This document shows positions 15,904-31,502 of a DNA stretch of 64,000 nucleotides, in pieces (position 1 is the first letter of the stretch; each line of letters opens with the position of its first letter). Source of the DNA: Pantoea eucalypti (GTDB taxonomy: Bacteria > Pseudomonadota > Gammaproteobacteria > Enterobacterales > Enterobacteriaceae). A program made the translations under genes and the position numbers. Location of the stretch: positions 124,001-188,000 of the forward strand of contig NZ_CP045721.1 in the NCBI RefSeq assembly GCF_009646115.1. Reading direction: 5' to 3'. Below the pieces are notes generated by a model, which saw only the letters and a program-made list of their open reading frames with translations, had not been told where the DNA came from and did not search any database.

Positions 15904-16599
15904 ATGTTATCTGTTCATCCGTCAATCGATCCCGCGGTTCTCGCGCTCGCCCCCGGCTTTCGTGCCATGAGCATTGTGGTAGACGCTACGCCGATAACAC
16001 GACCTGAGGTCGCCAGCGAAGCATTGAAGAGTGCCTGCCAGCAGGTGTTGCAGGAGGATGTGGCCTGGGCAGATGCGCATCTGGCAGCCTGGGCCGAGGT
16101 TTTCAAAGCCTTTGGTGCTAAAGCGAAACGCACACCCTGTTCTGCTGAAGCATTGCGCAAGCGCGTGCTGCGGGATGGCGCATTGCCTGCTATCGATCCG
16201 GTTGTCGATCTCTACAATGCCATCAGCATTCGCTACGCCCTGCCAGTTGGAGGCGAAAATATTGCGGCTTATATTGGTGCGCCACGTCTGGTGATTGCTG
16301 ACGGCAGTGAACGGTTCGATACCGTCAAAGAGGGCGAGGTGGTTGATGAGTCACCAGAACCCGGCGAAGTGATCTGGCGAGACGATCAGGGCGTAACCTG
16401 CCGCCGCTGGAACTGGCGTCAGGGTGTGCGGACCAGACTGGATGCCAGTGCACGCCAGATGTGGTTTATCCTGGAAAGTCTTCCGGCTATGCCGCTCATT
16501 GCGCTGCAACAGGCCAGTGACGATCTGATCTCGGGATTAGAGCAGATGATGCCAGGGGCACAGGTCAGTGCAACGCTGATCGACGCGCCAGCCATCTGA
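15904..16599 (+). CDS. B3/4 (PheT-like) domain protein
   Basis: About 231 residues resembling the B3/B4 editing-like domain of phenylalanyl-tRNA synthetase beta subunits, found free-standing in many bacteria. Typical stretches are DPVVDLYNAISIRYALPVGGEN and the later DGSERFDTVKEGEVV with a C-terminal LIxGLExM helix. Free-standing members are proposed to edit mischarged tRNAs or bind amino acids, but the role is not settled. ATG 15904 has GAGAG upstream. ATG 15889 is a possible longer start. It is paired divergently with the XRE-cupin regulator. Confidence 0.82.
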   Translation: MLSVHPSIDPAVLALAPGFRAMSIVVDATPITRPEVASEALKSACQQVLQEDVAWADAHLAAWAEVFKAFGAKAKRTPCSAEALRKRVLRDGALPAIDPVVDLYNAISIRYALPVGGENIAAYIGAPRLVIADGSERFDTVKEGEVVDESPEPGEVIWRDDQGVTCRRWNWRQGVRTRLDASARQMWFILESLPAMPLIALQQASDDLISGLEQMMPGAQVSATLIDAPAI

Positions 16600-16714
16600 A
16601 CATTGCCCCAACACCGGTGATGCAGGGTTAACGTTGGCCAGAATCTGTGGCAGGATACGCGCCCTGCGTCTGGCCATACCCGGCTGACTGAACTGCATAC
16701 AACCGGTGACTATA

Positions 16715-17035
16715 ATGGCTAAAGTAAAATATATTCTCCCGCTGCTGCTGATCCTGGCTCTGGCTGGCTGGTGGTTGATCCCGCACGACAGTGAGGAGGA
16801 TAAAGCGTATTACGTCGCGGTATTCTGCGCGATCGATCATCACAGTGCGCAGCCGCTTGATACACAGATGCGCAACGTGATAGAAGGCGGCAATTCTGAC
16901 TATGCGTTGCAAAAAATAACTTACAAGTCAGCGCTGGGCGACCGTGTGATTGGCCGCTGGCAGCAACTGACGACGGATGATCAACAGCGCGCCGCCCAGG
17001 ATAATGCAGCCTGCCAGCAACTGCTGACGCGCTGA
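16715..17035 (+). CDS. Small membrane-anchored protein of unknown function
   Basis: 106 residues with an N-terminal hydrophobic helix (about 5-23, KYILPLLLILALAGWWLIP) and a soluble tail with two cysteines (Cys39 and one near the C-terminus). It is either a signal-anchored periplasmic protein or a cleaved one. A GTG at 16706 in the same frame is an alternative start. I do not recognise the family. It stands alone between the B3/4 gene and the pseudogene scar at 17059. Confidence 0.6.
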   Translation: MAKVKYILPLLLILALAGWWLIPHDSEEDKAYYVAVFCAIDHHSAQPLDTQMRNVIEGGNSDYALQKITYKSALGDRVIGRWQQLTTDDQQRAAQDNAACQQLLTR

Positions 17036-17058
17036 TTTCCGGCGGAGGTGTTTATCTG

Positions 17059-17449
17059 ATGAGGCAAATTATTTCGCGCGGGCCATTATTATGGCCGCGC
17101 CCGTCCTGGCATATCCTTCAACACCAGAGATCACCGCACATCTTTTATCTACGGTTGTTGGCAGGATTACATTAAAAAATCGTGTTAAACGATATCGATG
17201 GCGCTGAAAACCGTATCAATATGGCGGCATACAGTTTCACCCATAAACCGGTTGTGGCCGCGCTAGTAGGCGCGAAAAATCGCGGTGTAACTAAGCGGGT
17301 AATTGTCATTCTACGACTGAGTAGCCTTAACGCCATCGTGCACAATAAATTCATGGGGGTTGACGATAACACTGTCCAGACGAGTTCTTTTCACTACACC
17401 TCTTCAGCAAAAAAACTAATGCCGAAGTGCGCTGATTATCAGAGGTAAC
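17059..17449 (+). pseudogene. Degenerate phospholipase-D-type nuclease (Nuc-like)
   Basis: Remnants of a Nuc/EndA-type endonuclease like plasmid pKM101 Nuc. A start (ATG 17059, GGAGG upstream) leads to a signal-peptide-like stretch in a shifted frame (AIIMAAPVLAYPSTPE). The next frame carries DGAENRINMAAYSFTHKPVVAALVGAKNRGV. A middle block is missing, then the HKD motif appears as HNKFMGVDDNTVQTSSFHYTSSA. The motif HxK(x)4D itself is intact. A further slip follows: in another frame the text continues AKKTNAEVR. At least two frameshifts and one internal deletion make it nonfunctional. Confidence 0.75.
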
Positions 17450-17478
17450 TTATTCATGAATAAGCAATATGAGAATGA

Positions 17479-18438
17479 ATTTGCACGATTGTCGTCAGAC
17501 TGCCCACGGGCCTCCAGAAAAAGGCCCCTTCTGAAGTAAAACCGGCTGAAAACGTTTCAGGTAATGAGCCTGTAAAACGCACACGGCGGCCATCGATGAG
17601 CCTGCTGGGGCTTCTGCACCTGTTGTGGGAACAGTCTGGTATCAATGTCTGGCACCCTGCTTTCGATAAAAAGAAACGCACTCCTGGCTGGGTGAGCTGG
17701 CGCCTGCAGCAAACGGCTGCCCGGATTCGCATTGGTCGCGTGCCGCTGGAAGAATCCCTGCTGCTCATGGCCATGAAAGATACGCCGCAGGTTATAGTTA
17801 ACCGGGAACACCTGAGAGCGGCCGAAAAGAGCAAAAGGCGGCTCATCGTCGTTTCTGTGCTGGCTGGCTGGAGTGAAACCGGTGAAGCAAGGCTGAAGAC
17901 GATGCTGCCGCTGGGGCTGTTTTCTGGCTTTCCTGACCTGGTTCTGCCGGAGGACGTGCGCCTGCGACTGGAGAGGAGTTTTGGCCGCGAGCTCGGCGAC
18001 TGGCGCAGGGGAATGAAAGTCGTGATTATCGCTGAATCAGAGCCGCCGGAAACATCGTTCAGGAAAATAGACGGGCGTAGCCGGCCGTCCAGCTGCAGTA
18101 CCGTACTCGACGTGGCGCTGATGACGGTCAGCCCACGCTTTATTCCGCTGGATTCCGGCTATGAGGCGGCTGTCGAAGACAAACTGTGGAAGGAAAAACG
18201 TGCCTTCATCAAGCCTCTGCGCTACGACGGAGAGGAAGACGTCTTCCCGGACTTCGTTCTGAAGGACGTGAAAGGCGTGGATGCGCTGCCGATGGAAGTG
18301 TTCGGCATGAACACACCCGAATACCTGCAACGTAAACAGGAAAAAACTGCCCATTATGATGTGGAATACGGTCAGAGCCGTTGGTGGTACTGGGAGGCAG
18401 CAAGCAGAAAGGAAATGCCACCATTCCCGGATGTCTGA
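17479..18438 (+). pseudogene. 5'-truncated DUF1173-like plasmid protein
   Basis: The open frame starts right after a stop at 17476. It already reads as plausible protein before any start codon (VVRLPTGLQKKAPSE, then a Pro/Glu linker), so the 5' part of a longer gene has been lost. The rest, 280 residues from ATG 17596, has a core (LLGLLHLLWEQSGINVWHPAF) and a C-terminal block (RYDGEEDVFPDFVL...MEVFGMNTPEYLQRKQEK) that I associate with DUF1173, a plasmid-linked family of unknown role. The ATG at 17596 could allow a shortened product. It directly abuts the nuclease remnant, as if one deletion joined the two. Confidence 0.6.
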
Positions 18439-18496
18439 AAGTCCTGGCGGGAGTGAGACGCGAAGGTGATTAGCAGGTCACCTTCACTGTGAAGAT

Positions 18497-18724
18497 TTAA
18501 ACAAACTTCAGGACCATATGAGATCCCTGAGTTTTTTTGACTGCTTCGTCAATATAGTGCTGACGAACAGCATCAGTTACGGGTTCACTTTCGTAGGGGG
18601 GTTCAAATTGTTTCATAGTACTTGTTTCAGCCACGAAACCACCCACGACCATTTCACCTTCTGCCCTGATTTTCTTTCCGTCTATATCGAGCATCACATA
18701 TGAACTGGTGCCTGTAATTTTCAT
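18497..18724 (-). CDS. Imm74-like immunity protein
   Basis: A 75-residue protein encoded one base after the PAAR toxin gene, the normal place for a cognate immunity gene. Its pattern (MKITGTSSYVMLDIDGKKIRAEGEM..GGFVA..., EPPYE, ending GSHMVLKF) fits my memory of the Imm74 family of polymorphic-toxin immunity proteins. It should bind and block the C-terminal toxin domain in the cytoplasm. There is no signal peptide, which agrees with a cytoplasmic target such as NAD+. Confidence 0.72.
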   Translation of the reverse strand: MKITGTSSYVMLDIDGKKIRAEGEMVVGGFVAETSTMKQFEPPYESEPVTDAVRQHYIDEAVKKTQGSHMVLKFV

Positions 18725-18725
18725 A

Positions 18726-19889
18726 TCAGTTATCCCTTACAAAAATGACTTTTTCCGTCTGCGATACCGGATCGATTGTAGTGATTTTCGTGACGTTATC
18801 ATTGCCCATCAGGCGCGGTAACTCAACGTTTTCCCATATATTACCTTCACGCAGCGACTGTCCCACGACGGCCCTGACTTCTCCTGATACCTGTTTAGCA
18901 TAGGACGCGGAGACGTCCTCCCAGGCCTTGATGCTCTGGGGGTTATCGAAATCCCATTCAGGCATTTTAATGTTTTTATCCTTGATTGTGGATTCGAGCG
19001 TGACTCCGCCCCGGGACTTGGCTATGCCCTCTGCGACATCAGGGCCACCGACACCTTCAGTCCGTCCTGACCAGAAAAAGGCACTGTCCGGATCGGTCGC
19101 CAGCTGAGGTTCTATTTCTTTCAGGTTGATGAGGCTCTTAGGCGTGTTTCGCCACGTATTGAAGGCTGCGCCTCCTTTTGCGCCGGCAAGGCCGCCTGCA
19201 AACGCACCGCCCAGCGCAAGCCACTTCTGACCGTCAGAGCCCTCTCCCCATAATTTCCCGCCTATATAAGCACCACCATAGCCTCCACCCAGTCCTCCCG
19301 CAAAACCAAGCAGGGCTATCGCCGGCCCAGCCAGGACAGCTGTGGCAGCAAGGCCTACGCCAAGTAGTACTCTGTCAACCCAGTCCGGAATTTCCGGACT
19401 GATTGCGTCAGTCTGCTCTTTACTGCCACCAATAAAGACGTTGGGTGAGCCGTCGCTGATCACACCGCTGCATGCCAGGCGATCTCCCGTCCGGGCAGCA
19501 GGCAGTCCGTTGATGTAGACGCGTGAAGACCCTTCTGCCACGCGTTGCAGGGCCGGACCGTGTTCGTCACAGTCACCCACGGACATATGCGACATCACCG
19601 CCGGCCTTCCATTAATAAACACATTTGATGAACCGGTGACCAGATGGCCGGTTTCGTGGTGGGGTGCCCATGACATGCTGCCAAGAACTTCTCCCAGCCC
19701 GCCACCACCTGCAGCACCGGCGACCGTCGCCGCCAGGGCTACCGCTCCGACACCCCCTGTGGCCAGCGTGAACGCCGCGCCGGCAATTGCCCCGCCTATC
19801 AGACCAAGCACCAGCCAGCCTTTAGAGGCAGAGTGTTCTATGCCATCCCCCACCCGTGCAGCGGAAAAGGCTTCTGCTGCACCACTCAT
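18726..19889 (-). CDS. Type VI PAAR effector, ADP-ribosyl-cyclase-like toxin tip
   Basis: 387 residues. A prePAAR motif (AARVGDGIEH, residues 10-19) is followed by a transmembrane pair (about 24-66), a PAAR repeat domain with GSSNVFINGRPA and GSPNVFIGG (about 75-155), a second transmembrane region (about 172-212) and a C-terminal toxin (about 265-387). In the toxin, Trp273 (FFWSGR), Glu299 (TLEST), Trp323 (IKAWEDVS) and Glu356 (NVELPRL) line up by eye with CD38 Trp125, Glu146, Trp189 and Glu226. I infer NAD+-consuming cyclase or glycohydrolase activity. The gene follows a DcrB-type chaperone (4-bp overlap) and precedes an Imm74-like gene. No T6SS core genes are in the window. The PAAR call is firm; the toxin call rests on manual alignment. 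Confidence 0.85.
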   Translation of the reverse strand: MSGAAEAFSAARVGDGIEHSASKGWLVLGLIGGAIAGAAFTLATGGVGAVALAATVAGAAGGGGLGEVLGSMSWAPHHETGHLVTGSSNVFINGRPAVMSHMSVGDCDEHGPALQRVAEGSSRVYINGLPAARTGDRLACSGVISDGSPNVFIGGSKEQTDAISPEIPDWVDRVLLGVGLAATAVLAGPAIALLGFAGGLGGGYGGAYIGGKLWGEGSDGQKWLALGGAFAGGLAGAKGGAAFNTWRNTPKSLINLKEIEPQLATDPDSAFFWSGRTEGVGGPDVAEGIAKSRGGVTLESTIKDKNIKMPEWDFDNPQSIKAWEDVSASYAKQVSGEVRAVVGQSLREGNIWENVELPRLMGNDNVTKITTIDPVSQTEKVIFVRDN

Positions 19890-20692
19890 TTTTCATTTAT
19901 CCGCTGACTGAGGTAGGCCTCAACGGCTTCAGTTGTATCCAGACCGTCAATACCCCGGACACTTCTGGCCAGAAGCAGGCTTGATATCAGTCCCGGTATT
20001 CTGGCACCGGTCATCTCCCACAGCGCAAAGCGGCCTGCATGCTCACCGTCAGGTATCGGAGATAGCATCAGCGGTTCGCCGGCAGCGTCAAAAAACAGAT
20101 AGCTGCCGTTCCTTGCCCGGATAAGATCAATGGATGAGTACAGGTCAGAAATTGAAGGGAACACGGTCAGTTCGCGGCTGTCACGGTCAAAGCAGAAAAA
20201 GATTTCCTGACTGTCGGCAGGGATCTGGCTGCGCCGTGCGGGCGAACCTTGTGCATCGTCCGGAAACGTAATGCTGTCCGTGATGCTGTCATAAATACGG
20301 CTATGGTAATCGTCAAACGCATCCGGGCAGGTGCCAACGAAGCAGAGCAGCTTTTTACCTGTACTGTTTTCAGATGTCAGTACAACCCTTTGCTTCTGAA
20401 AGATGATTCTTTCGCCGGATTTGAAACTGTAAAACAGTTCCAGCGCCTGCCTGCCATTTATTTCGGTAAGCCGGGCATGATTGAGTGAGAGATCCTGCAG
20501 AGTAGCCTGCAGTTCAGATGACAGCTTCTGGGATACTGACTTAAGCGTGTCTTCTGCCGCAGCTGTTGCACGTGAAATCACGAAGGTGAATTCATTGGCA
20601 TTCGTATGGCTGAGGGTAAAGAGGTTCATGGTGCGATCGCGAAATACGTCAGGCACCGTAATGTTGCAGTCCTGCAGGGTATATTCAGACAT
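19886..20692 (-). CDS. EagR-type (DcrB/DUF1795) effector chaperone, extended
   Basis: 268 residues. Residues 1 to about 145 form a DcrB/DUF1795 domain (TLQDCNITVPDVFRDRTMNLFTL... LTEINGRQALELFYSF), the fold of Eag chaperones that shield the N-terminal transmembrane helices of prePAAR effectors before loading onto VgrG. The gene overlaps the PAAR effector by 4 bp and lies upstream of it, the canonical eag-effector order. About 110 extra residues follow (SQEIFFCFDRDSRELTVFPSISDLYSSI..., ending in helices), which simple Eag proteins of roughly 140-150 residues lack. That domain is unrecognised. Confidence 0.82.
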   Translation of the reverse strand: MSEYTLQDCNITVPDVFRDRTMNLFTLSHTNANEFTFVISRATAAAEDTLKSVSQKLSSELQATLQDLSLNHARLTEINGRQALELFYSFKSGERIIFQKQRVVLTSENSTGKKLLCFVGTCPDAFDDYHSRIYDSITDSITFPDDAQGSPARRSQIPADSQEIFFCFDRDSRELTVFPSISDLYSSIDLIRARNGSYLFFDAAGEPLMLSPIPDGEHAGRFALWEMTGARIPGLISSLLLARSVRGIDGLDTTEAVEAYLSQRINEK

Positions 20693-20910
20693 GTAAAGCT
20701 TCTCCGTGGCGATTCAGTCCGGACCAGAATATCAACGTTTATAAAAATGATCTCCCTATGATCCTGTCCGAAAGTTAATCCTGGAGGAGATGCAACAGGC
20801 CGTGGTGCTGTATGCCTCGCGCAATATTATTCCGCGGCCTTTGCACCATCTGGCGGGAAGGCTACAGGTACGCCAATGCAGTCGTCATGCCAGATGACTT
20901 TCAGAAACGT
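20693..20910. other. Spacer with possible short coding remnant
   Basis: Between the chaperone start and the terminator of the RES gene. A 36-codon frame on the + strand (20790-20900, MQQAVVLYASRNIIPRP...) has a GGAGGAG-like ribosome site but no recognised relatives. It may be the tail of a lost gene. Nothing else was seen. Confidence 0.25.
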
Positions 20911-20938
20911 AAAAAGGCGGGGTGCCCTTTTCCGCCTT
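20911..20938 (-). terminator. Rho-independent terminator of the RES gene
   Basis: Read on the minus strand: AAGGCGG, an 11-base loop, CCGCCTT and then a T-run. It begins a few bases after the stop codon at 20942. Confidence 0.8.
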
Positions 20939-20941
20939 AAT

Positions 20942-22315
20942 TCAAGTTCCTTCAGTCCCTACTGACATCCGGTCAGTCTGAGCGCCCCCGGTCAGGTCAG
21001 CACTGAACTTCAGCGCAATGCCAGCAGGAAAAGTGTCATACTGTACACCGGTTACAAAATGTACCATAAGGCCTGCAGTATCCATCACAAGATCTGCTTT
21101 CTTAAATTTTTTATGAAGGTTATTAGATGGAGAAGAATTAAGTTTCGCTTGGTCCAAAGAGGTAATCGAAGGGCTGGGATACCAAATGTCATCTTCGGCA
21201 TTTTCGTACATTTCAGCCCTGTATTTTACACCATTCGCACCTCCATTTTTCACGCGAGACGAATTTCTGAACAGAACGATATTATATTTAGCATCATCCT
21301 TATTTTCGGGGTGTGCACTCTGCGTTGAATGAAACATTATGCCGTCCAGCTTTAGTGAATCAGAAATGCTGAGGTATTCGGATACGGCCTGCGTTATCAG
21401 ATATTCGCTGTCCGTCCGGGCCGCTGTTACGGGGACCGTCAGCTTTCGAGATAATGTTCTGAGGAACGAGGTGACTTCTATCTGGCCACGAGTTTCCGGA
21501 TCGAACAGGCTGCCCTCCTTTATTACAATGTTCTCAAGCGCCGACAGGTCAAGAATACGCATCGGGCGTGTTGGTCTGAAGGGTGCAACTACAACCACGC
21601 TTCCTACAGCGGGCCGGACCTCAGCAATTGCCGTTTCACGACTGGCTGCGCCGTAGAATACCGGCACACCCGGAGCGTTCATCCTTCCGGCTCGAGCCTT
21701 GGCAGAAGGTGGCGGACCGAAATTGCGCTCAGGATGTTCTAGCTCTGCTTTGATTTTATCGTAATCATCAAAGGCTCTCGCCCTGTACATAACATCATTC
21801 TCATCAATGGTTCTGACTGTCGCTCCGGATGAAATGTATGCTTGTTCCACGCCTGAAAATATCCGGTCAAGAAAGGTGCGCAGACTGCTGTTGAAATAGC
21901 GACTTTCGGTCTCTAGCGATGTCTTGAGTTTTTTCCATGTGTAATCAAACTCCGTTACTTCAAACGCATCTTTAACATAAACGTAGAATTCACTGTACGT
22001 TTCATTGTCCCATTCATTATGTTTCTCACAGAGAAGATCAAATATATCCTGGCACGCCGCCTCATCCACGCCCAGTTCCTCTGAGATGACTTCCTCAGTG
22101 GTTGCCCCAAACGCATAGTTTTCGTTTTCAAAATATGATGTGTAATAACCATTAAATACTGCATGCATACGGTCCGCAATGTCACTTAGCTCAACAGTGC
22201 TTTCAGCACGCCCGCAATAACTACACGGTTCCCCGCTTTGTACATGCGAACGGATGTGCTGGCTGACGTAAGCGTCTTCGATGCAAACGTCACAGATGTA
22301 CTTTTCTTCGTCCAT
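20942..22315 (-). CDS. RES-domain protein with zinc-ribbon/HEPN-RES N-terminus
   Basis: 457 residues. The N-terminus has two CxxC pairs (Cys8-Cys11, Cys31-Cys34), a small zinc ribbon, followed by about 130 helical acidic residues of the kind placed before RES domains (HEPN/RES N-terminal region). The RES domain spans about 170-370: MYRARAF (177-182), GRMNAPGVPVFYGAASRETAIAEVRP (210-235) with the expected Arg/Tyr/Glu positions, and KYNIVLF. RES toxins of RES-Xre pairs degrade NAD+. Here no Xre-type antitoxin gene adjoins, so this longer form is either self-controlled or part of the divergent HEPN island. About 90 unassigned residues follow the RES core. Confidence 0.8.
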   Translation of the reverse strand: MDEEKYICDVCIEDAYVSQHIRSHVQSGEPCSYCGRAESTVELSDIADRMHAVFNGYYTSYFENENYAFGATTEEVISEELGVDEAACQDIFDLLCEKHNEWDNETYSEFYVYVKDAFEVTEFDYTWKKLKTSLETESRYFNSSLRTFLDRIFSGVEQAYISSGATVRTIDENDVMYRARAFDDYDKIKAELEHPERNFGPPPSAKARAGRMNAPGVPVFYGAASRETAIAEVRPAVGSVVVVAPFRPTRPMRILDLSALENIVIKEGSLFDPETRGQIEVTSFLRTLSRKLTVPVTAARTDSEYLITQAVSEYLSISDSLKLDGIMFHSTQSAHPENKDDAKYNIVLFRNSSRVKNGGANGVKYRAEMYENAEDDIWYPSPSITSLDQAKLNSSPSNNLHKKFKKADLVMDTAGLMVHFVTGVQYDTFPAGIALKFSADLTGGAQTDRMSVGTEGT

Positions 22316-22511
22316 AGTTTTTAGGCTTTTATCTGACCGGATGATGTCTTTTCATTTTACCGGATGACTCTGCTCTGGCACGCATTTCTTTGTTTACACA
22401 GTGACCAGTCATGAGGCAAAAGGTGACTGGTAAATAGGCCTGACATTGACACCAGGTGCAGGCATACTTTATAGCTCTCAACTTACACTTTTTCGTTAGG
22501 GGTGATTGGTG

Positions 22512-23186
22512 ATGGAACAACACACCTTCATAGACCGTTTTTTTCAGAGCAGTAAAGAACTAACTGACTTCAGGAACATGGGGGAACGTGACATAAACAC
22601 GCTCTTCAGCTTCCTTAATAACCTGCATTCATTTCAAGATCGCATTCTTATTGAATTTGATTTAAGCATTGCTCAATACCCGGAATTCAAGCTTCTGAGA
22701 ATTATCAGAAATTATTTCCATCATGTCGGGGATGTTTATGAATTCAGAGTATTTAATGCCAGGAATGAATTCTCACTCAGTCATACGGAAATGATTATTA
22801 TTCCGGTCTCTGTGATAGCTAAAGCCGTAATGAACACAAAAAAAAGACGTGATGGCTTAAAAGATGTTGAGTCGATATGTGAGTTCATTGATGGGTTTGA
22901 ATATATATCAGAGCAAGACTCTTTTCTGGCTCAGGGGCGATATCTAATTCACGAGGGAAAAAAGTATTTTCCTGGGTTTGACCTTTTTAAGTGTGTTTAT
23001 AATATAACAAATATAATAGCTGACATTTGCCGTAAAACAACAGAATTATCACAGAAAAAATGTGTGCTTTCTCTCGATAGTACTTATACCAGTAATAATA
23101 ATATTGGGAAGTTCAATTTATACTGTCACGCTGGGAGTGTTCCATTTCTCTCAACGGAAGGATATATATTTCCTTCTTCAAGTTGA
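22512..23186 (+). CDS. HEPN-motif protein 1 of the island
   Basis: 224 residues, AT-rich coding. No family recognised by name. The segment FKLLRIIRNYFHHVGD carries Arg68-x4-His73, the HEPN RNase signature, in a predicted helix. The rest is mostly helical with a short beta-rich tail. ATG 22512 follows an AGGGG-like site; TTG 22506 is the alternative. It is the first gene of a five-gene run (HEPN, HNH, HEPN, HEPN, HEPN), divergent from the RES gene with 196 bp between. The HNH gene starts 20 bp later. A role in phage or plasmid defence is inference from context and motif only. Confidence 0.6.
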   Translation: MEQHTFIDRFFQSSKELTDFRNMGERDINTLFSFLNNLHSFQDRILIEFDLSIAQYPEFKLLRIIRNYFHHVGDVYEFRVFNARNEFSLSHTEMIIIPVSVIAKAVMNTKKRRDGLKDVESICEFIDGFEYISEQDSFLAQGRYLIHEGKKYFPGFDLFKCVYNITNIIADICRKTTELSQKKCVLSLDSTYTSNNNIGKFNLYCHAGSVPFLSTEGYIFPSSS

Positions 23187-23206
23187 ATATATGAAGAGGT
23201 CGCATA

Positions 23207-23926
23207 GTGATAAGAAATCTTGAAAGGATGAAACATGCCCTCACTGAGTGGGCTATAAAAGAGGGAATGTTTGGTGACGCCCGTTTTTATACCCAAATGG
23301 AATGGCACGAACGAAAAGAAGATGTGCATGACGATGCGCTGATGGTCATGGTGATTGACGGTAGCGGGTTATGGAGCCTGCTGAACACGGGATGTAACAC
23401 CACTGAATTTGAGGATCTGATTGAGTCGTTTGGTTTCTGGTATGAACTGGGCTATTCCTGGAACATAGGGTTTTATCCAACCGATAATTATGACTATCGC
23501 AGGCTCAATGGTACCTATGCATCAAAACTCTGTGATCCGAGATGGAAACGGAAAGCCTCTCTTGTCAAGGATGTGGCAGGGCAAGAGTGCCAGGACTGTG
23601 GTGCAAAAGGCTATCTGGACGCACATCACTGTTATTACACCACGATAAATCAGGGCTATGAGCCGTGGGAGTATCCGCTCAGTGCATTTCGCGCGCTATG
23701 TTCTGACTGCCACCGGACGCGCCCTGTTCCTGAAATCAGGATGCGTGCCTTCCTGGCTCAGCTGACCCAGTCCCAGCTGGCAGGACTTATTGATGGGCTG
23801 GACAATGGCTTTAACCGTTTTGAGGCAGATTCGTTCATTCAGTTTATGCAGAAAGCGACATTTCTTAAAAAACCTATGGATGAGGCACTCCTGCTTCTCA
23901 AAAAAAATACTGATATCTATGACTGA
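23207..23926 (+). CDS. HNH endonuclease-like protein
   Basis: 239 residues from a GTG start with AGAGGT upstream. An HNH/zinc-finger nuclease core is seen at residues 128-169: CQDCG, LDAHHCYY with the paired histidines 140-141, and LCSDCH. The N-terminal 120 residues have no recognised domain, and a C-terminal helical tail follows. Such proteins usually cut DNA. The compact 20-bp gap after HEPN 1 and 67 bp before HEPN 2 suggest co-transcription. ATG 23228 is a possible shorter start. Confidence 0.75.
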   Translation: MIRNLERMKHALTEWAIKEGMFGDARFYTQMEWHERKEDVHDDALMVMVIDGSGLWSLLNTGCNTTEFEDLIESFGFWYELGYSWNIGFYPTDNYDYRRLNGTYASKLCDPRWKRKASLVKDVAGQECQDCGAKGYLDAHHCYYTTINQGYEPWEYPLSAFRALCSDCHRTRPVPEIRMRAFLAQLTQSQLAGLIDGLDNGFNRFEADSFIQFMQKATFLKKPMDEALLLLKKNTDIYD

Positions 23927-23993
23927 ATTATCTGGAAAAAGTCATAAAAAAGTTATTTTTACAAATCAATATTTAATTTTTTAAGGACAGGAA

Positions 23994-24590
23994 ATGCCAT
24001 CGCATGATTTTAATAATCTTTTTGTCAGGGGCGTTGCTAGGAAGATCAGGGAGTTAAATAATTTAATATTTATGCTGGCCTTAAGAGCTGAGGATATCGA
24101 TAAGGGTTTTTCTTTCAATGAAAGCGCCAAGCTAGTCTTTGGCTGGCCTGCTCATATAACTAACATGTATGAATATCGTATGATGTGGGATGTTGACTAT
24201 AATCGTTTATATCAGATATGCATAATATCTCACTGTTCAGAACTAGAATATTTTTTTAAAACTCTTTTTGATAAATATCCACATCTTCCAAAAAAAAATA
24301 ATAACTTCTACCAAAGGTTTGGTCTTGTTATAGAGGAACTGCAAAAAACGGGGATAGATTTTACCTCCATTCAGCAAGATATTGATCTGGTAAGTATTGC
24401 TTTTCAGGTCAGGCATATTGGTATCCATAACATGAGCATTGTGGATGAATACTTTCAGAAAAACACGAAGGGGCTTGGAACGCTGGGACAACCCTTCGTC
24501 GTAACTCAGGAATTTGTGACAGATACCTCAACGGCTATCGATAAGATCCTCAAGCACCTCGACGACGCTCTTCCTCCTGTACCCGCCTGA
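23994..24590 (+). CDS. HEPN-motif protein 2 of the island
   Basis: 198 residues, AT-rich in its first two thirds, with a ribosome site AAGGA 8 bp upstream. The segment IAFQVRHIGIHNMSIVD contains Arg140-x4-His145, the HEPN catalytic pair, near the end of a helical protein. An earlier patch (IISHCSELEYFFKTLF) is typical of the first long helices of HEPN nucleases. No named family is recognised. Expected activity is RNA cleavage, or a role as a toxin or antitoxin partner. This is inferred. Confidence 0.62.
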   Translation: MPSHDFNNLFVRGVARKIRELNNLIFMLALRAEDIDKGFSFNESAKLVFGWPAHITNMYEYRMMWDVDYNRLYQICIISHCSELEYFFKTLFDKYPHLPKKNNNFYQRFGLVIEELQKTGIDFTSIQQDIDLVSIAFQVRHIGIHNMSIVDEYFQKNTKGLGTLGQPFVVTQEFVTDTSTAIDKILKHLDDALPPVPA

Positions 24591-24837
24591 TTTTTGCTTT
24601 TCCCGGCGGGACCAGGCATTGAGAGAAGAGTGCCTGGGGAGAAAGTAGTGGCATCACTGAATCCGATCTAAACCAGCGCTGGATGTGAATGAAGGGCACA
24701 GGAGAAAATCGTATGGGAATCTCTTGGAATTCCCAGCCTGCATAATCGGGTCATAGGATTAAACCCAAAAGGTCTTCAGCCGATAAACTAAGTCACAATG
24801 ACTAACAGGAACTCACCTCAGATAAAGGATAACAGTC

Positions 24838-25431
24838 ATGACCCGAGCAATAAGTGACAATGATTACCGTTCGCAGAAAGCCGCGCTTTACAGCTTAATG
24901 GGCGAATTTGCCGTAGAGTTTGAAATCATCTGCTTGAACATGCGCATGGGTATTTCTATGCTGGCAACGCAATCCGGGCTTCAGGATCAGAACATTATGC
25001 AAGCGGCGATGGCTGAATATTCAGCCGCACCGCTGCTGAAAGTATTCCGCTCCATGTTTATGGATTCTAAATGGATCAGCACGGAGGTGGAACAATCCCT
25101 CAAGGACATTAACCGGAGAATGATAAAGCTCACTGAAACCCGTAACCAGTACATCCATGGTACGATTTTCGTAGGATGGGGTAACGGTGATGAAACTGAG
25201 TTTACTCACGCAAACGGACATAAAATTGTCAATACGAGTACAGGAACAGAGATAAAAAATTTCACCGTTGATAAAGAAACCTTCAGGCCGATACTGAAGG
25301 AGTGCCGGGAACTCGCCGCGTTGGTTCAGGAAACGTGGACTGTTGCGCTGTACGGCCATCTTTCAGCGCCGGGTGCAGATGCCGGGACATCTACGGGATC
25401 TCAAGCAAATCAGAGGGAGGAATCGAAATGA
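24838..25431 (+). CDS. HEPN-motif protein 3 of the island
   Basis: 197 residues. The motif region INRRMIKLTETRNQYIHGTIFVGWG includes Arg102-x4-His107 with the frequent Asn after Arg (RNxxxH), a strong HEPN signature. The first 70 residues are hydrophobic-amphipathic helices. The C-terminal 25 residues are Gly/Ser/Glu-rich and disordered. It overlaps HEPN 4 by 4 bp (ATGA), so the two are translationally coupled and perhaps form a complex. It is preceded by 247 bp of spacer, so it may have its own promoter. Confidence 0.65.
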   Translation: MTRAISDNDYRSQKAALYSLMGEFAVEFEIICLNMRMGISMLATQSGLQDQNIMQAAMAEYSAAPLLKVFRSMFMDSKWISTEVEQSLKDINRRMIKLTETRNQYIHGTIFVGWGNGDETEFTHANGHKIVNTSTGTEIKNFTVDKETFRPILKECRELAALVQETWTVALYGHLSAPGADAGTSTGSQANQREESK

Positions 25432-26195
25432 GTTTTACTAAGCGGCTGCTTGAAGAGGCTGAAGAAGAAGAAGCGATGAATGAATGGCTTCGCGATCACG
25501 TCGATTGGGGGGTGGTGGAGGGCGATCCAGAATGGGAGGAAGCCAAACAAGAGTACCTGGCTGGCCTCACGTGGGAACCTGACTGGGAGCAAGAGAATTT
25601 CGAGCAAGAACTGGCGCGATTAACCCAGGATGACCTGGCCCACGCATCGTTCTTCAATCAGATGTCCGCTCTGGAAGATGATCTACCAGATTCACCGTCT
25701 GAGTCACTACTGAAAATGACCTATTCCTATTCCGTCACGCTGATGGAAACCTGCCTCGGTGACATGATTAAAAGCGTGGTGCTCAGTGATGACTACTATC
25801 TGAAAAATGCCATTACAAGCGTAACCGAATTAAAAATCATCAAGCTGTCGTTGATGGAGGTTTATTCAGACAACACTGTCGTTAAAAAGGTCGTATTAAA
25901 AACGCTCTCCGATTACCTGTATCATAATATTGAAAAAATCGTGCCTGTATACAGCGCGATACTTGGCGAGAAGACGCCGGCCGACGTCAGAAATAACATG
26001 CCGTCGGTGATCCTAATCGCCAAAGTCCGGCATGACATTGTTCACCGTAACGGCGTGGACAAGGACGGCAACTACGTCCCGCTGAATAAAGAGATCTTAC
26101 TTAAGGCCATGAAGGACATTAAAGAATTCGTTGATCACATGAAGGCATCGATTGATGCTTCCATGTATAACCGCACTTCAAATCCTGTACCATAA
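25428..26195 (+). CDS. HEPN-motif protein 4, acidic N-terminus
   Basis: 255 residues from ATG 25428, with GGGAGG 7 bases upstream. Residues 1-70 are extremely acidic and Trp-rich (clusters EEAEEEEAMNEW, GDPEWEEAKQEY, PDWEQENFEQE), an unusual leader that could bind a positively charged partner. The C-terminal half carries VILIAKVRHDIVHRNG with Arg201-x4-His206, the classic HEPN RHDIVH motif. Coupling to HEPN 3 suggests a two-component unit. Possible roles are an RNase with its own neutralising segment, or a nuclease/modulator pair. The function is not known. Confidence 0.68.
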   Translation: MSFTKRLLEEAEEEEAMNEWLRDHVDWGVVEGDPEWEEAKQEYLAGLTWEPDWEQENFEQELARLTQDDLAHASFFNQMSALEDDLPDSPSESLLKMTYSYSVTLMETCLGDMIKSVVLSDDYYLKNAITSVTELKIIKLSLMEVYSDNTVVKKVVLKTLSDYLYHNIEKIVPVYSAILGEKTPADVRNNMPSVILIAKVRHDIVHRNGVDKDGNYVPLNKEILLKAMKDIKEFVDHMKASIDASMYNRTSNPVP

Positions 26196-26379
26196 TATTT
26201 CTATAAAATACGGGAATCGTCACCCCGCTAAGGCCGTTAATAACCAGCCTTAGCGAAAATATTGCCCGCGAAATAAACCAATCATTTCTGCAATAATAAC
26301 CGCCCGGAAACGAGGATACATCCTTCCGGTTGTTTTGCACCCTGCGTTTTCCGGCTTCGTTTCTCCCTCTGCCTGACTG
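26196..26379. other. Spacer after the HEPN operon
   Basis: A run with TAAGGC/GCCTTA inverted repeats (about 26225-26255: CGCTAAGGC near GCCTTAGCG) that can fold as a terminator for the HEPN operon. No gene was seen. Confidence 0.5.
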
Positions 26380-26646
26380 TCAGCGCGTATCTGCCCTCCT
26401 TCTACTTCTCTGCCTAACTTTGGATCTTTCCCCGGAGCCTCGCCTGAAGATGCGCTGAGTCCCGAATTGTACCAGTAGCAAGCACGCCGGAGCGGTAAAA
26501 CACTGCGCTGGTCCGCTCCCTGTCGGCGGGCGGATGACCACGATCACCAGCTCGCCACTGGCGTACTTCTCCCAGGCTTCCCGTTCACCAGGCATTAAGA
26601 GCAGACTACCTGGTAAGCAAGTTTCAATTAGCGGAATGTTTTTCAA
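26380..26646 (-). CDS. Doubtful 88-residue ORF behind the NACHT gene
   Basis: A GC-rich frame that begins with TTG three bases after the NACHT stop codon and reads MKNIPLIETCLPGSLLLMPG..., then a basic low-complexity end. It may be a truncated gene left at an insertion boundary, because base composition changes sharply from AT-rich (NACHT) to GC-rich exactly here. The family is unrecognised. It could be noncoding. Confidence 0.3.
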   Translation of the reverse strand: MKNIPLIETCLPGSLLLMPGEREAWEKYASGELVIVVIRPPTGSGPAQCFTAPACLLLVQFGTQRIFRRGSGERSKVRQRSRRRADTR

Positions 26647-26649
26647 TGC

Positions 26650-28569
26650 CTATAGGAAATCAAAACTATTGTCTATAGCGTTTCTTCTTTCCAGTGATTC
26701 TTTGTACTTTACCTTATAAACCTTATTGTTGTATTCATTTATAGAATCAAAAAAAATTCTCTTGTATTCATCATAAGTATTCGAAAATTTTAAGTAATCA
26801 ATTAATTGGAATGCATAATTTTCAATTGGATCGGAATTTTCTCTCTGTATTGATTTACCACTTTTATATTCATTGTTTGGCAGTACCTTAACGATGTGGC
26901 CAATGTTTTTTAAATTATCTCTCGTAATTCCCTTATCCATAGCCTCAAAAAGAGGCATGTCAACAAAAAAGCCAGACCTTCTTCGGTTGCCACTGATGAC
27001 ATCAAGGAAATCAAGCTTTAAAACGCTACTCATTGCAATATTACAATCAATTTTTATCAGATTGTCACTCTGTCTACACTGTCCTCTTACCATTATATCC
27101 TTTAGTATTTGGTCAAAAGAAAGTGAGAAGTCATCATAATTCAGATCAGCATAATTTTTGTATTCGCAGTCTCTGAAAGCTTCAAGGGTAAGTTCTTCTA
27201 TAAAGGTGTTATTATCCAGATGATATAAAAAATGCAGAAAATTGTCTAAATTGCTAGAAAGTCGCACCTTTGCTCTCAGGTTCTTATAGATTTTAGCTTT
27301 AGTATCCTTTGCCTTCATAATGCTAAGGTAAAACGCAGCAAAAAATTCCTGAACGGACTTATGAAGAAATACAAATCTGTCATTGCCATCCGCCTGTAAA
27401 AGACATGTTATTTTCACAATATCTTTGATGAAGGCTTCTGCTTTTTTTACATCATACGAACGGGTTTCTAGCGCTGCCTCTACATACTGATGTAGTGTAT
27501 ATGAATCAAGTTCATATTCTTCCAGAAGTAAAGATTTTAAGCTTAAAAATGAAAAGAATTCGCGGGCAGGCTCAACATCAATCTCAGATTCTCTTTCTCT
27601 TGAGTTGTAACCTTTTGTTTTATCGTGTCTTGCATAAAGAACGCCAAAGAGTTGACGATAAAATTCACTGATATCGCTAGGGACTTCGTCCATATAAGGG
27701 AAGCAGTGATACAAAAGCGTCACCATTATGGGATTGCATATTGTATCTGAAAAAGACTCTCTGGATATGAGAAGTTCACACAGGTAGCGGAATGTGCTTC
27801 CGTTTGAATTAACATCCCTTTGCTCAATTAAATTTAATATGCGTATTTTATCCTCAAGGTCTATATTTTCAACAAACAGGTTATGTATTCCTGGCATTGT
27901 GCAAACTTCAGTGTTAGGTCTGCTTGTAATGATTATTGGGCAGTAAAAGCTGTTATTTAATAGCATTATTGAGCTTAGTGTTTTTGTTGTGAGTTCCTGA
28001 CGTACCTCATCAAACCCGTCAAGTAACAAAACGACCTTTCCTGACTGCAGAAGATATTCAACATTTGAGTCTGTTACATTTAGATGTAAGCTACTCAGAA
28101 GACTTTTAAAATAGGCGATTACATCACCGTTCTCGACGTTCCTGAGTTCAATGAAAAAGGGAATCCTGTTGCCGTAGTTTATCTCTTCCAGAAATAGTTT
28201 TCGAAGAATTGTACTTTTTCCTTGTCCTGCGATACCTATTATATTTGCTATCCCGCTAAATGGGAGGGTTACATTATCCCCAACAATAATTTTGTCTCTA
28301 TTGGATGCCGTAATTAATGTCAGAGGATAATAAATATCTTCAAGTGTAACATCATCATTTGGGTTTATAAGTGTGCGCATTTTTAGTGTGTGCTGTACAT
28401 GTTTACGAAGATAGTTTTGTTTTGGCCACTCGCTCTCAAGTTCTTTTACAATTTCTTTTGCATCCTCAAAATGCTTACTCCAGTTTGAATTAAGAACTTT
28501 TTGCAGCATTAATTCAACGCTCTTTACAACAACTGCCTTTAAAACCATAGCTCCCAATACTTCTGACAT
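26650..28569 (-). CDS. NACHT-domain NTPase (bacterial NLR-like)
   Basis: 639 residues with strongly AT-rich codons. A helical N-terminal region (1 to about 90) precedes a NACHT module: Walker A GIAGQGKST (112-120), Walker B VVLLLDGFDEV (179-189) with the small/acid pattern of NACHT, sensor-like ITSRPN (214-219), then FCNPIMVTLLY-like winged-helix/helical region and a long helical C-terminal half with no obvious repeats. Bacterial NACHT proteins (bNACHT) protect against phages. This one lacks an obvious effector nuclease at its N-terminus, so it may act through the short helical domain or nearby proteins. A GAGGAAA ribosome site precedes the ATG. It converges on the HEPN operon. Confidence 0.85.
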   Translation of the reverse strand: MSEVLGAMVLKAVVVKSVELMLQKVLNSNWSKHFEDAKEIVKELESEWPKQNYLRKHVQHTLKMRTLINPNDDVTLEDIYYPLTLITASNRDKIIVGDNVTLPFSGIANIIGIAGQGKSTILRKLFLEEINYGNRIPFFIELRNVENGDVIAYFKSLLSSLHLNVTDSNVEYLLQSGKVVLLLDGFDEVRQELTTKTLSSIMLLNNSFYCPIIITSRPNTEVCTMPGIHNLFVENIDLEDKIRILNLIEQRDVNSNGSTFRYLCELLISRESFSDTICNPIMVTLLYHCFPYMDEVPSDISEFYRQLFGVLYARHDKTKGYNSRERESEIDVEPAREFFSFLSLKSLLLEEYELDSYTLHQYVEAALETRSYDVKKAEAFIKDIVKITCLLQADGNDRFVFLHKSVQEFFAAFYLSIMKAKDTKAKIYKNLRAKVRLSSNLDNFLHFLYHLDNNTFIEELTLEAFRDCEYKNYADLNYDDFSLSFDQILKDIMVRGQCRQSDNLIKIDCNIAMSSVLKLDFLDVISGNRRRSGFFVDMPLFEAMDKGITRDNLKNIGHIVKVLPNNEYKSGKSIQRENSDPIENYAFQLIDYLKFSNTYDEYKRIFFDSINEYNNKVYKVKYKESLERRNAIDNSFDFL

Positions 28570-29633
28570 GGTACTTTCCTCAATAATTTATTTTACCTAT
28601 ATAAATAATAATACGACTGCATCTGTAATTCACTTCCATTCTTCACCCTGTGTAAATAGGCTTGGAAAAGCCGGTTTAAGTACTTATGCATCTGAATAAT
28701 AACGCATGATATTGTTTCATTTTGTTTTACCTTACTTTTTAAAACTCCAGGCATTCACCGTAGAGTGCCTGTTACCGCCCTGCCCAAGCCATTCATGGCA
28801 CTGAGCGCGGATAAAGGTAACCTCGTCAGATAGATAGCTGTGCTGAAAACGTGCCGATCATAGCGAATGGGCCGCGTGCGTGCGCAGGCGTACAAGGTTA
28901 TATAGCGTATAGTGGAAAAAAGACCGATCCAGCCTTACCCGATCACCGATTTATTGCGGTCGGTTTTTCTGGACAGATGCGCGAAATACGTTCCATGACC
29001 ACGGACAGCGGAGAATGAAAAATTGAGAGGGTTACCCCGCGAACTTTCGCAGAATTAATTATATTTACCGAAAAGAAATTCTGCGTGCTGAGATCTCAAT
29101 TCTGGCAAAGTGCTACCGGCAGGCCAAGTGCAGTAAGTAACGTGCTATAGGCGACGAGCGTTTAAACAGTGTGCTGTGAGCTACCGGCGTGATTTTCTCA
29201 TGTCAGCCCTTCTTCTTATGTTATGTCCACATTCTTTCAAAGCAGTCTTTACTGCACTCTGCCTGCTTATACGTATTAATGTAACAAACATCACCAAGAG
29301 CAAAATACACACTTCTGTGCTGCATTTTGACTTTATCCTCGGCATTCTGCATAAAGCTTTCCTGCTGAATCTTAGAGATCCGGAAAAGGGTGGAAACGGA
29401 TATTTGCGCCTCACCGGCGTTTTTCTACATACAACTACATATAGTGCGTTGTTAGTTAGGTAAAATACAAGATATGGTATAAAGGCGGCTGCCGGACCCG
29501 GCGAGGTCTAGCTTTTCCCCGCCCCGCCGCCGTGCTGTGCTTCCGGTTACTGCTGTATCAGGAAAAAGTCGGATCATGTCGGTTAGGCTGTGCGGTAATC
29601 TCATTCATACCCTATAAGAATGGATATTATTTT
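28570..29633. other. AT-rich noncoding interval
   Basis: About 1.06 kb without a convincing gene on either strand. It contains a possible terminator near 28946-28973 (ACCGA..TCGGT followed by TTTTT) and scattered short frames, all without ribosome sites or recognised patterns. It may hold decayed mobile-element DNA and the NACHT promoter, but no IS ends could be recognised. Confidence 0.35.
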
Positions 29634-30044
29634 ATGGCCAATAATAACGTGCTATTTATAAAGATTAGTGAAGAACCTTTGATGGAAGCTATCCTCAAAA
29701 AGATGAAAGGTGTGATTGAGATGAATGAACTGTGTATTAAAGAGACAACACAGATTGTGGGACACGCAAAAATAATCAAAAGGAATATTGTTACGCATTC
29801 GGACAGAGGGTTATTAGAGATCATGCCAAACGGGAGTTTCAGGGAAATGAACGATTACATCTATAAGCGTGGCGAATCCGATAATATATTAATGCCAAAG
29901 TCTCCTGAAGGTAACGGCGAAGTCAGGGACATGCCACTAGATGAAGCCTGGACTCTGACTCAGAAAGAAATTTTAATCGGTAATCTGAAACCAGGCTCAA
30001 CTCCAGTCCCTCCCACAACAAGAATTAGAGGGCCAAGACTTTGA
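29634..30044 (+). CDS. Hypothetical protein, unknown
   Basis: 136 residues from ATG 29634 (NNNVLFIKISEEPLMEAILKKMKGVIEMNELCIKETTQIV...). The longer frame from 29532 looks noncoding. The Pro/Thr-rich end (GSTPVPPTTRIRGPRL) suggests a disordered tail. There is no signal peptide, membrane helix or family I recognise. It is AT-rich like the island to its left and overlaps the next small frame. Confidence 0.5.
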   Translation: MANNNVLFIKISEEPLMEAILKKMKGVIEMNELCIKETTQIVGHAKIIKRNIVTHSDRGLLEIMPNGSFREMNDYIYKRGESDNILMPKSPEGNGEVRDMPLDEAWTLTQKEILIGNLKPGSTPVPPTTRIRGPRL

Positions 30045-30181
30045 CGCCCGAGGAAAATGCTGACAGTCTGGCATCAGCAGTTTCTCAACCAGATACGATT
30101 CAGAAACTCAAACAGCGGGCACTGATTTTCCTGACCCGGTTGCAGCTGCAGACAACTTTGCAAAAGGATTATGAAAAATGA
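30041..30181 (+). CDS. Possible 46-residue peptide
   Basis: A TTG-initiated frame overlapping the stop of the gene before by 4 bp. It reads TPEENADSLASAV... with a helical amphipathic end (LKQRALIFLTRLQLQTTLQKDYEK), which looks protein-like. Its stop overlaps the ATG of the next frame. It could be a piece of a degraded plasmid pilus or transfer gene, but no relative is certain. Confidence 0.35.
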   Translation: MTPEENADSLASAVSQPDTIQKLKQRALIFLTRLQLQTTLQKDYEK

Positions 30182-30471
30182 AATGGCCAGCATGTCTGTT
30201 TAGCTGTTCTGTCCTGCTGGCTGAAACGGCGTCCTCTGCCAGCGCCGCAACCTATGAGGAAGCTGCACCCCACGGGAAGTACCCAGGTCTCTATTCAGAA
30301 CCTGCCGGGAGATGGAAAGAACATCCTGCCGACGCGGCTTGCCGCCAGGACGATAGTTATAAGCCTGACGGCAGAGCTTATCGTTTTTCGCGCCACCACT
30401 GCGTGGTCCCCGCAGATAAAAAACATTGCCGGACTGAAGCTGACCTAAACAATCACCCAGAGAAAAGATGA
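30178..30471 (+). pseudogene. Possible secreted-protein remnant
   Basis: 97 residues opening with a plausible signal peptide (MKWPACLFSCSVLLAETASSASA), after which the frame loses protein character and becomes rich in His/Arg/Glu. Another frame from 30254 is equally long. This suggests a frameshifted remnant, coupled by ATGA to the small frame before it. No family identified. Confidence 0.3.
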
Positions 30472-30571
30472 AAGGGGTTATTATTCGATTGTCGACCCTG
30501 CTAGCAATTGCTGACGCACTGAGCAATAGCGGGCGTTATTATCTGTTTGTGAAAATAGTGAAGGAGGAAAT

Positions 30572-30949
30572 ATGACCCAGCCAGAACGCAAAAATTACGC
30601 AGAACTGGGCGAAGTAAAAGCACCTTATGTGCATGCCGTTAAGCATGGCAACACGCTTTATGTTTCAGGGCTCACTGCGGCTGGCACACCCGCTCAGCAG
30701 GGCGATATGGCTGAACAGGCAGAAGCTATTTTTGATCAGCTCAGGCATATTACCGCCGCAGAGCATACCTCGCTTGCCGCACTGCTCAAGGTCACAATAT
30801 TTATCACCTCTTTCACTGAGATCACCGCGCTGAGGGAAGTACTTTATCGTAATTATGGTGGACATCTGCCTGCCAGTTCGCTGGTCCAGGTCAACGGCCT
30901 TTTCTCCGCTGACCTGCGCATTGAGATCGAGGCCATTTTTGCCCTCTGA
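30572..30949 (+). CDS. RidA-family protein
   Basis: 125 residues of the RidA/YjgF/UK114 fold: VSGLTAAGTPAQQGDMAEQAEAIFDQLRHI, LLKVTIFITSF and the C-terminal PASSLVQVNGLFSADLRIEIEAIF with the family's late Arg (in DLRIEIE) that binds carboxylates. RidA proteins hydrolyse reactive enamine/imine intermediates in amino-acid metabolism. Many paralogues, such as this plasmid one, have specialised substrates. AGGAGG lies 6 bases before the ATG. Confidence 0.88.
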   Translation: MTQPERKNYAELGEVKAPYVHAVKHGNTLYVSGLTAAGTPAQQGDMAEQAEAIFDQLRHITAAEHTSLAALLKVTIFITSFTEITALREVLYRNYGGHLPASSLVQVNGLFSADLRIEIEAIFAL

Positions 30950-30974
30950 GTAACAGGCATCAGGCACCCGAGTT

Positions 30975-31502
30975 TTACAGCTGAAGATCAGCAGCAGCGG
31001 AACCCCGCGCCAGATAACCGATGCGGTAGACCTCCTGTTGGTCTGCGGAACGCTGCTGTGACGCGTCAATGCTTAATCCCTGCCAGCGGGTCACATCCCA
31101 GGCACTTAATCCTGCCGTCAGTGGCAGTGTAATCAGGTCCGAATGCCGGGGGATCGTCCAGCGATTCAGCGTCATAAACCGGGCGTCGGCCAGATTCGGA
31201 AGATGGTTCTGTCCTTCCAGTGCCAGCCAGCTTTCGATGATCGGCCAGCCAAAATCTCTGACCAGCGTCGCGAAGCCAGGACTTTGCAGGAAACGCTGCA
31301 TACCACTCGCCTCCCGCCAGAAATAGATGGGTGCATAACGGTTTTCATTCAGTCCGCCATCATCACGGCAGGCCCAGAGATACGCCTTCGCCACCAGCCC
31401 CGGAAAGCCATCCAGCCGGGCACCGTTTAGCCTGATGCGCTGTTCAATGATGCCCATATCGTAGTCCGCAGGCAGGGTAAAACGGTAGTGCATGATAATC
31501 AT
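30975..31502 (-). CDS. DUF4865-family protein
   Basis: 175 residues starting at ATG 31502, whose ATGA overlaps the stop of the tautomerase gene, with GGAGG just upstream. MIIMHYRFTLPADYDMGIIEQRIRLNGARLDGFPGLVAKAYL is the typical beginning of DUF4865 proteins, which resemble monooxygenase-like ferredoxin-fold enzymes. It is the third gene of an operon with a CMD-family and a tautomerase-family protein, all read from one promoter divergent to a LysR gene. The substrate is unknown, but the set suggests handling of an aromatic or quinone-like compound. Confidence 0.82.
   Translation of the reverse strand: MIIMHYRFTLPADYDMGIIEQRIRLNGARLDGFPGLVAKAYLWACRDDGGLNENRYAPIYFWREASGMQRFLQSPGFATLVRDFGWPIIESWLALEGQNHLPNLADARFMTLNRWTIPRHSDLITLPLTAGLSAWDVTRWQGLSIDASQQRSADQQEVYRIGYLARGSAAADLQL

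Follow-up and report, generated by a model that had tools for sequence, protein, structure and literature searches.

HEPN-like proteins of several families around an HNH nuclease gene in a Pantoea plasmid region, probably carried as stacked cassettes

The stretch of Pantoea eucalypti DNA analysed here (64,000 nucleotides of contig NZ_CP045721.1, positions 124,001 to 188,000; below, the window) contains at positions 22512-26195 a run of five genes on the same strand, four of which encode proteins with the R-x4-H motif of HEPN RNases and one a putative HNH endonuclease. We favour, as the more probable reading, that these genes form separate small conflict cassettes that lie stacked within accessory DNA of a Pantoea plasmid, and not one new system. 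The first cassette would be P1-HNH-P3 (gaps of 20 and 67 bp) and the second P4-P5, which overlap by 4 bp and start 247 bp beyond P3, with a RES toxin gene on one side of the cassettes and a NACHT NTPase gene on the other. The genes, the motifs and the four distances (20, 67, 247 and -4 bp) had been reported by a sequence-only reading of this DNA and are exact. The four motif genes, which that reading called consecutive, do share a strand, although the HNH gene separates the first two, as it also said itself. The five genes are as follows.

P1, 22512-23186, + strand: 224 aa from ATG, RNYFHH at residues 66-71; candidate HEPN protein of a new family.
P2, 23207-23926, + strand: HNH endonuclease, Cys/His HNH core at about residues 94-180.
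P3, 23994-24590, + strand: 198 aa, RHIGIH at residues 140-145; predicted HEPN-fold protein.
P4, 24838-25431, + strand: 197 aa, RNQYIH at residues 102-107; probable HEPN protein of a new family.
P5, 25428-26195, + strand: 255 aa, RHDIVH at residues 201-206; RiboL-PSP-type HEPN protein, ATGA overlap with P4.

When P1 is read from the TTG at 22506 it has 226 aa, and RNYFHH is then numbered 68-73.

The presence of the bare motif was rejected as evidence, since 19 of the window's 58 other open reading frames (ORFs) of at least 90 aa contain R....H, as does the HNH protein itself (RKEDVH). At this frequency four bare motifs in five genes are no rarity, a given run having a probability (19/58)^4 of about 1% and about 60 runs being possible. 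According to PMC3710099, the residue following the Arg of the HEPN motif is mostly N, D or H. The restricted form R[NHD]...H occurs in only 4 of the 58 ORFs, which gives about 2e-5 for four of four. P4 was omitted from the ORF count, being displaced by a longer GTG-start form of P5, and its motif was taken from the ORF listing.

The multi-alignments reveal that the Arg and His of the motif are invariant in P1 (8/8 sequences), P3 (20/20), P4 (8/8) and P5 (4/4), the window copy being included. Each Arg is followed by a polar residue, as in the published HEPN rule (RN in P1 and P4, RH in P3 and P5). The alignments comprised, besides the window copy, the Rahnella locus L014 and six viral-contig loci for P1, 19 of the 21 database matches for P3 (P0015 and P0016, both of 112 aa, were omitted), all seven database matches for P4 and three plasmid relatives for P5. 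The weight of this invariance is reduced by the number of invariant positions overall (55/224 in P1, 38/198 in P3 and 47/255 in P5), and for P4 it says little, the aligned sequences being very similar to one another (mean column identity 77%). A second feature, Ex3[KR] with a second conserved acidic residue, is described in PMC3710099 as typical of HEPN proteins and not universal. P3 contains it as E85-x3-K89 in 20/20 sequences, inside a predicted helix (70-94). In P4 the Lys of E85-x3-K is kept in 6/8 sequences; P1 has E178-x3-K far after the R-x4-H motif, and the sole candidate in P5, D203-x3-R207, lies within the motif itself. Profile-profile comparison was run for five of the six pairs of motif families (all except P1-P3), and since all five gave a probability below 1%, the four families are not shown to be mutually related.

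The fold prediction is clearest for P3. Its structure model is all-helical and confident (predicted local distance difference test, pLDDT, of 90.2), and the nearest structures in a fold search are HEPN toxins and Csm6, which supports a HEPN identity at the level of the model. P3 differs from the HepT/HEPN toxins of HEPN-MNT pairs in that no nucleotidyltransferase gene adjoins it, in its length (198 aa against 130-144) and in its sequence (6-11% identity). A database relative is 95% identical, and no relatives were found in plasmid records. A P3-like tblastn match in L056 was discarded because it overlaps a terminase-like ORF.

P5 has a nameable family. The window copy aligns with PF18735 (HEPN_RiboL-PSP) over residues 84-242 with E = 1.1e-4 and 22.7 bits, below the cut-off of 28.4. 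Two of the three aligned relatives, one on a Yersinia massiliensis plasmid and one on an E. coli plasmid, exceed it (30.4 and 31.4 bits); that of Yersinia enterocolitica scores 21.5 bits and a more distant Serratia P5-like protein 21.7 bits. With RHDIVH kept, the profile matches support P5 as a PF18735-type HEPN protein. PF18735 is listed for the defence systems PD-T4-2, PD-T4-5, PD-T7-3 and ApeA (PMC10952713), so the statement that none of the proteins matches a defence family that can be named fails for P5. The L-PSP fusion and the ParB neighbour described for RiboL-PSP-HEPN proteins (PMC3710099) were not seen here. The window proteins have the HEPN signature in common with ApeA and other HEPN anti-phage proteins, but the ApeA N-terminal domain has no match in any of P1, P3, P4 and P5.

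P4 and P1 are weaker candidates. P4 has only seven database matches, with a relative 96% identical; RNxYIHG is invariant in 8/8 sequences, and its motif makes it a probable HEPN protein. Single members give weak matches across the motif to HEPN_Cthe2314 (0.07), ApeA (0.011) and RTasHEPN (0.04), which prove little because Cas2, a peptidase, PDC-S56 and PDC-S58 match at similar strength. For P1 the AlphaFold2 model is poor (pLDDT 48.5) and the fold searches return only weak matches, of which ANT(4'') is the first and Csm6 the fourth. Residues R66, N67 and H71 are nevertheless invariant in 8/8 sequences, and one of the eight matches HEPN_Cthe2314 below the cut-off (E = 0.015); P1 is thus a plausible HEPN candidate. 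No member scanned of the P1, P3 and P4 families has a Pfam match above cut-off, and when the sequences of the PDB were searched with the P4, P5 and HNH alignments, neither HEPN nor HNH entries appeared up to E = 1. Of the four HEPN proteins claimed from sequence alone, P3 is supported by its predicted fold and P5 by its Pfam family, while P4 is probable and P1 a candidate; structure prediction, which had been proposed as a check, gave a HEPN-like result for P3 and a poor model for P1.

Together these data suggest HEPN-like families that are new but belong to an already known kind. P1, P3 and P4 look like HEPN families without a Pfam match above cut-off, and the predicted fold of P3 makes this concrete. 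No description of the P1, P3, P4 or P5 families, nor of the P1-HNH or HNH-P3 pair, was found in titles and abstract openings, a search whose scope left subscription journals mostly outside. HEPN defence proteins are reported in PMC13092281 and PMC10799925.

The distribution of the genes bears directly on whether they act together. The sequence-only reading had proposed a search for the five genes together in other genomes and named their absence as evidence against it. The outcome went against it: the five genes were not found together in any other genome or locus examined, a set that excludes the contigs behind the near-identical database proteins, whereas the pieces P1+HNH and HNH+P3 recur. 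Among 345 genomes sampled from the order, with the source counted, P4 matches one, P3 two, HNH three and P1 five, mostly weakly beyond the source (three of the four other P1 genomes give weak matches); P5 was outside this search. For P4, the source genome is the only match among 197 relatives and these 345 genomes, and its relatives were found neither in viral contigs nor in plasmid records. P5 relatives occur in 691 of 72,556 plasmid records, in which P4 has none. Together with the 247-bp gap that divides the run, these data weigh against a single dedicated defence system made of all five genes, with four different HEPN RNases cooperating with the HNH nuclease. Such a system would accord with the common strand, the mostly short gaps and the block of low G+C (0.35-0.48 in 1-kb windows starting at 20500-29500, against about 0.50-0.61 on either side), and contigs carrying the near-identical relatives of P3, P4 and HNH (95%, 96% and 99%) might hold the whole run; we judge it very improbable.

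Between these readings stands the possibility that P1-HNH, perhaps with P3, is one system and that P4 and P5 make up a separate toxin-antitoxin pair in which one protein neutralises its partner. The tight and recurrent spacing of P1 and HNH and the 4-bp overlap of P4 and P5 are in its favour. However, P5 also occurs without P4, with other upstream neighbours in L007, L008, L009 and L041, and the catalytic motif, for which an antitoxin would have no use, is retained in both proteins. We regard this pairing as doubtful, and stacked cassettes of abortive-infection or toxin genes as the probable nature of the run.

The recurrence of the first cassette was followed from P1 and from HNH. Among the 11 P1 places scanned, P1 and HNH are adjacent in four (the window, L014, L028 and L029) and apart in seven (L005, L006, L037-L040 and L061, of which L061 covers only about 1.5 kb on each side). 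The weak P1 matches L062, L063 and L064 and the loci L035 and L036, repeat copies of L028 and L029, were dropped before counting. With the longest ORFs, the gaps are of 18 bp in Rahnella (L014) and of 18 and 7 bp in the viral contigs L028 and L029. Conversely, HNH lacks an adjoining P1 in 16 of 19 loci, which represent at most 18 independent ones because L024 and L032 gave identical ORFs. In a genome of the same genus (G020) a decayed HNH gene is followed by P3 in the same order and at a similar distance, with no P1 match in the 8 kb examined. Three of the 21 P3 matches share their longest-contig size (13399, 54229 and 2988) with an HNH match, which is circumstantial; one of these pairs is named Cronobacter turicensis on both sides, and none of the seven P4 matches shows such a coincidence.

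The HNH protein matches HNH families of PHROG (best E = 8.6e-6) and has no HNH match in Pfam. The motifs CxxC, LxxHHCYY and CxxCH are invariant across 21 sequences (the window copy and 20 of 91 matches). In Pseudomonas (L026:5932-8009) a RES gene, 32.6% identical to that of the window, lies 89 bp downstream of an HNH relative. One could imagine from these arrangements a modular defence system in which HNH, conserved over an N-terminal part of about 100 residues, is the constant half, acting as sensor or cutting DNA, and the toxin half is exchanged. The partner would be the HEPN protein P1 upstream of HNH in the window, Rahnella and two viral contigs, the HEPN protein P3 downstream in the window, in the decayed G020 copy and probably in Cronobacter, and a RES toxin downstream in Pseudomonas; the window would then be an unusual double-toxin version, P1-HNH-P3, with the RES gene alongside. 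We consider this partner-swapping unlikely; if true, it would add a modular nuclease-toxin architecture. A SIR2-looking gene (by eye) converges on an HNH relative in the viral contigs L030:6767-8263 and L033:6766-8262.

Relatives of the window proteins are found on mobile elements and, in some cases, near recognised defence genes. P1 relatives are present in 21 plasmid records and six viral-contig loci, with none in phage records. HNH gave one partial match in plasmid records and two in phage records, and 19 viral-contig loci hold a P5 relative. P5 DNA matches 7 of 5426 E. coli genomes, all in the chromosome; the two inspected lie in P2-like prophages, between the replication endonuclease gene and the ogr/portal genes. 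This site is a published defence hotspot (PMC9122126 and PMC9519451), located between gpA and gpQ and occupied by genes such as old and tin, and the E. coli P5 relatives sit there; P5 of the window, in contrast, is plasmid-borne and belongs to a different cluster. In pMAS2027 a gene assigned by Pfam to ApeA adjoins the P5 relative. By eye, relatives of P3 (L027), of P1 and HNH (L029) and of P5 (L041) each adjoin UmuC/UmuD-looking genes in viral contigs, as at a shared cargo site.

A P1 relative of a Klebsiella plasmid (L075:8001-14281) lies directly upstream of an Mrr-type endonuclease gene, followed by SAVED, CD-NTase, ThiF and Mov34 genes, a set which we take to be a cyclic oligonucleotide-based anti-phage signalling system (CBASS). 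The SAVED protein of this locus also has an HNH_2 domain. A Serratia plasmid (L073:393-9481) encodes within about 9 kb four R-x4-H proteins of different families: an Abi_2 protein (RNRISH), whose gene is two genes from the P1 relative, a 245-aa protein (RNIMAH), the P1 relative (RNYYHH) and a P5-like protein (RNDLVH) about 5.3 kb away. Mixed HEPN-type clusters are consequently not unique to the window, but a general clustering trend is not apparent, since R[NHD]...H occurs in 5 of 74 genes at most two places from P1, P3 or P5 relatives and in 4 of 107 further away (20 loci).

These neighbourhoods also bear on mobile-element housekeeping, in which HNH would be an endonuclease of the homing type or one that serves phage packaging, accompanied by R-x4-H proteins that are helical but non-catalytic. 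In its favour, six HNH relatives lie on viral contigs, some of them close to genes that by eye resemble structural or lysis genes, and the HNH protein matches phage HNH families. It accords poorly with the Arg and His that never vary in the aligned relatives, with the HEPN toxins as best matches of P3, and with relatives near CBASS-type, ApeA and Abi_2 genes, and appears to us decidedly unlikely. Because the relatives are carried by viral contigs and plasmids, in some cases beside recognised defence genes, the HEPN-like proteins are testable candidates for new anti-phage RNases.

By analogy with the HEPN literature (PMC3710099), we infer that the HEPN proteins of the stacked cassettes would be metal-independent RNases, kept inactive during growth until infection, or competition between mobile elements, sets them off. 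Cleavage of tRNA or mRNA by these proteins would then arrest the cell in a manner resembling abortive infection, while the HNH protein would cut or nick DNA. Co-transcription of the genes, cooperation of P1 with HNH and an anti-phage effect may likewise be supposed.

The surroundings of the run contain three further features.

RES toxin gene, 20942-22315, - strand: PF08808 at 62.8 bits and PF18870 at 29.5 bits, both over cut-off; Cys-rich N-terminus, HEPN/RES-NTD1 and RES.
NACHT NTPase gene, 26650-28569, - strand: PF05729 at 36.9 bits (cut-off 26.7); converges on P5.
Accessory stretch, 19738-30338, no strand: 10.6 kb missing from the otherwise collinear plasmid of Pantoea sp. MT58 (blastn; flanks 98.8% and 99.4% identical).

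Both neighbours, named as RES and NACHT genes by the sequence-only reading, pass Pfam cut-offs. The RES gene, which diverges from P1 and is an opposite-strand neighbour outside the five-gene run, has NTD1, RES and a Cys-rich N-terminus resembling the N-terminal Zn ribbon with which HEPN/RES-NTD1-RES toxins are described (Anantharaman 2013, PMC3710099). The source genome measures 4.8 Mb. Megablast of 17000-31000 matched 61 plasmid records, 60 of Pantoea and one of Erwinia, and with the MT58 plasmid matching the flanks at 98.8-99.4% the window most likely belongs to a Pantoea plasmid. No near-identical DNA was found in the E. coli genomes. The search for PF05168 in the source genome, for tRNA in the 64-kb window and for Rfam families at gathering threshold in 20000-31000 gave no match; NCBIfam returned nothing above its curated cut-offs, and PADLOC on ten window genes nothing convincing (best E 0.0012).

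The stretch 19738-30338 is dispensable in MT58. MT58 was rejected as an empty site, since its PAAR gene is truncated, without the first 49 codons, and 11 bp are shared at the join; both the PAAR and the DcrB gene are complete in a P. alfalfae plasmid, which makes loss of the stretch from MT58 by deletion the simplest reading. Only one pair of repeats of at least 20 bp occurs in 16500-31000, at 29698 and 30463. At 18497-20692 the window carries a Type VI-type PAAR effector gene, a DcrB gene and an Imm74 immunity gene, with matches of 87.5-98% in other Pantoea plasmids.

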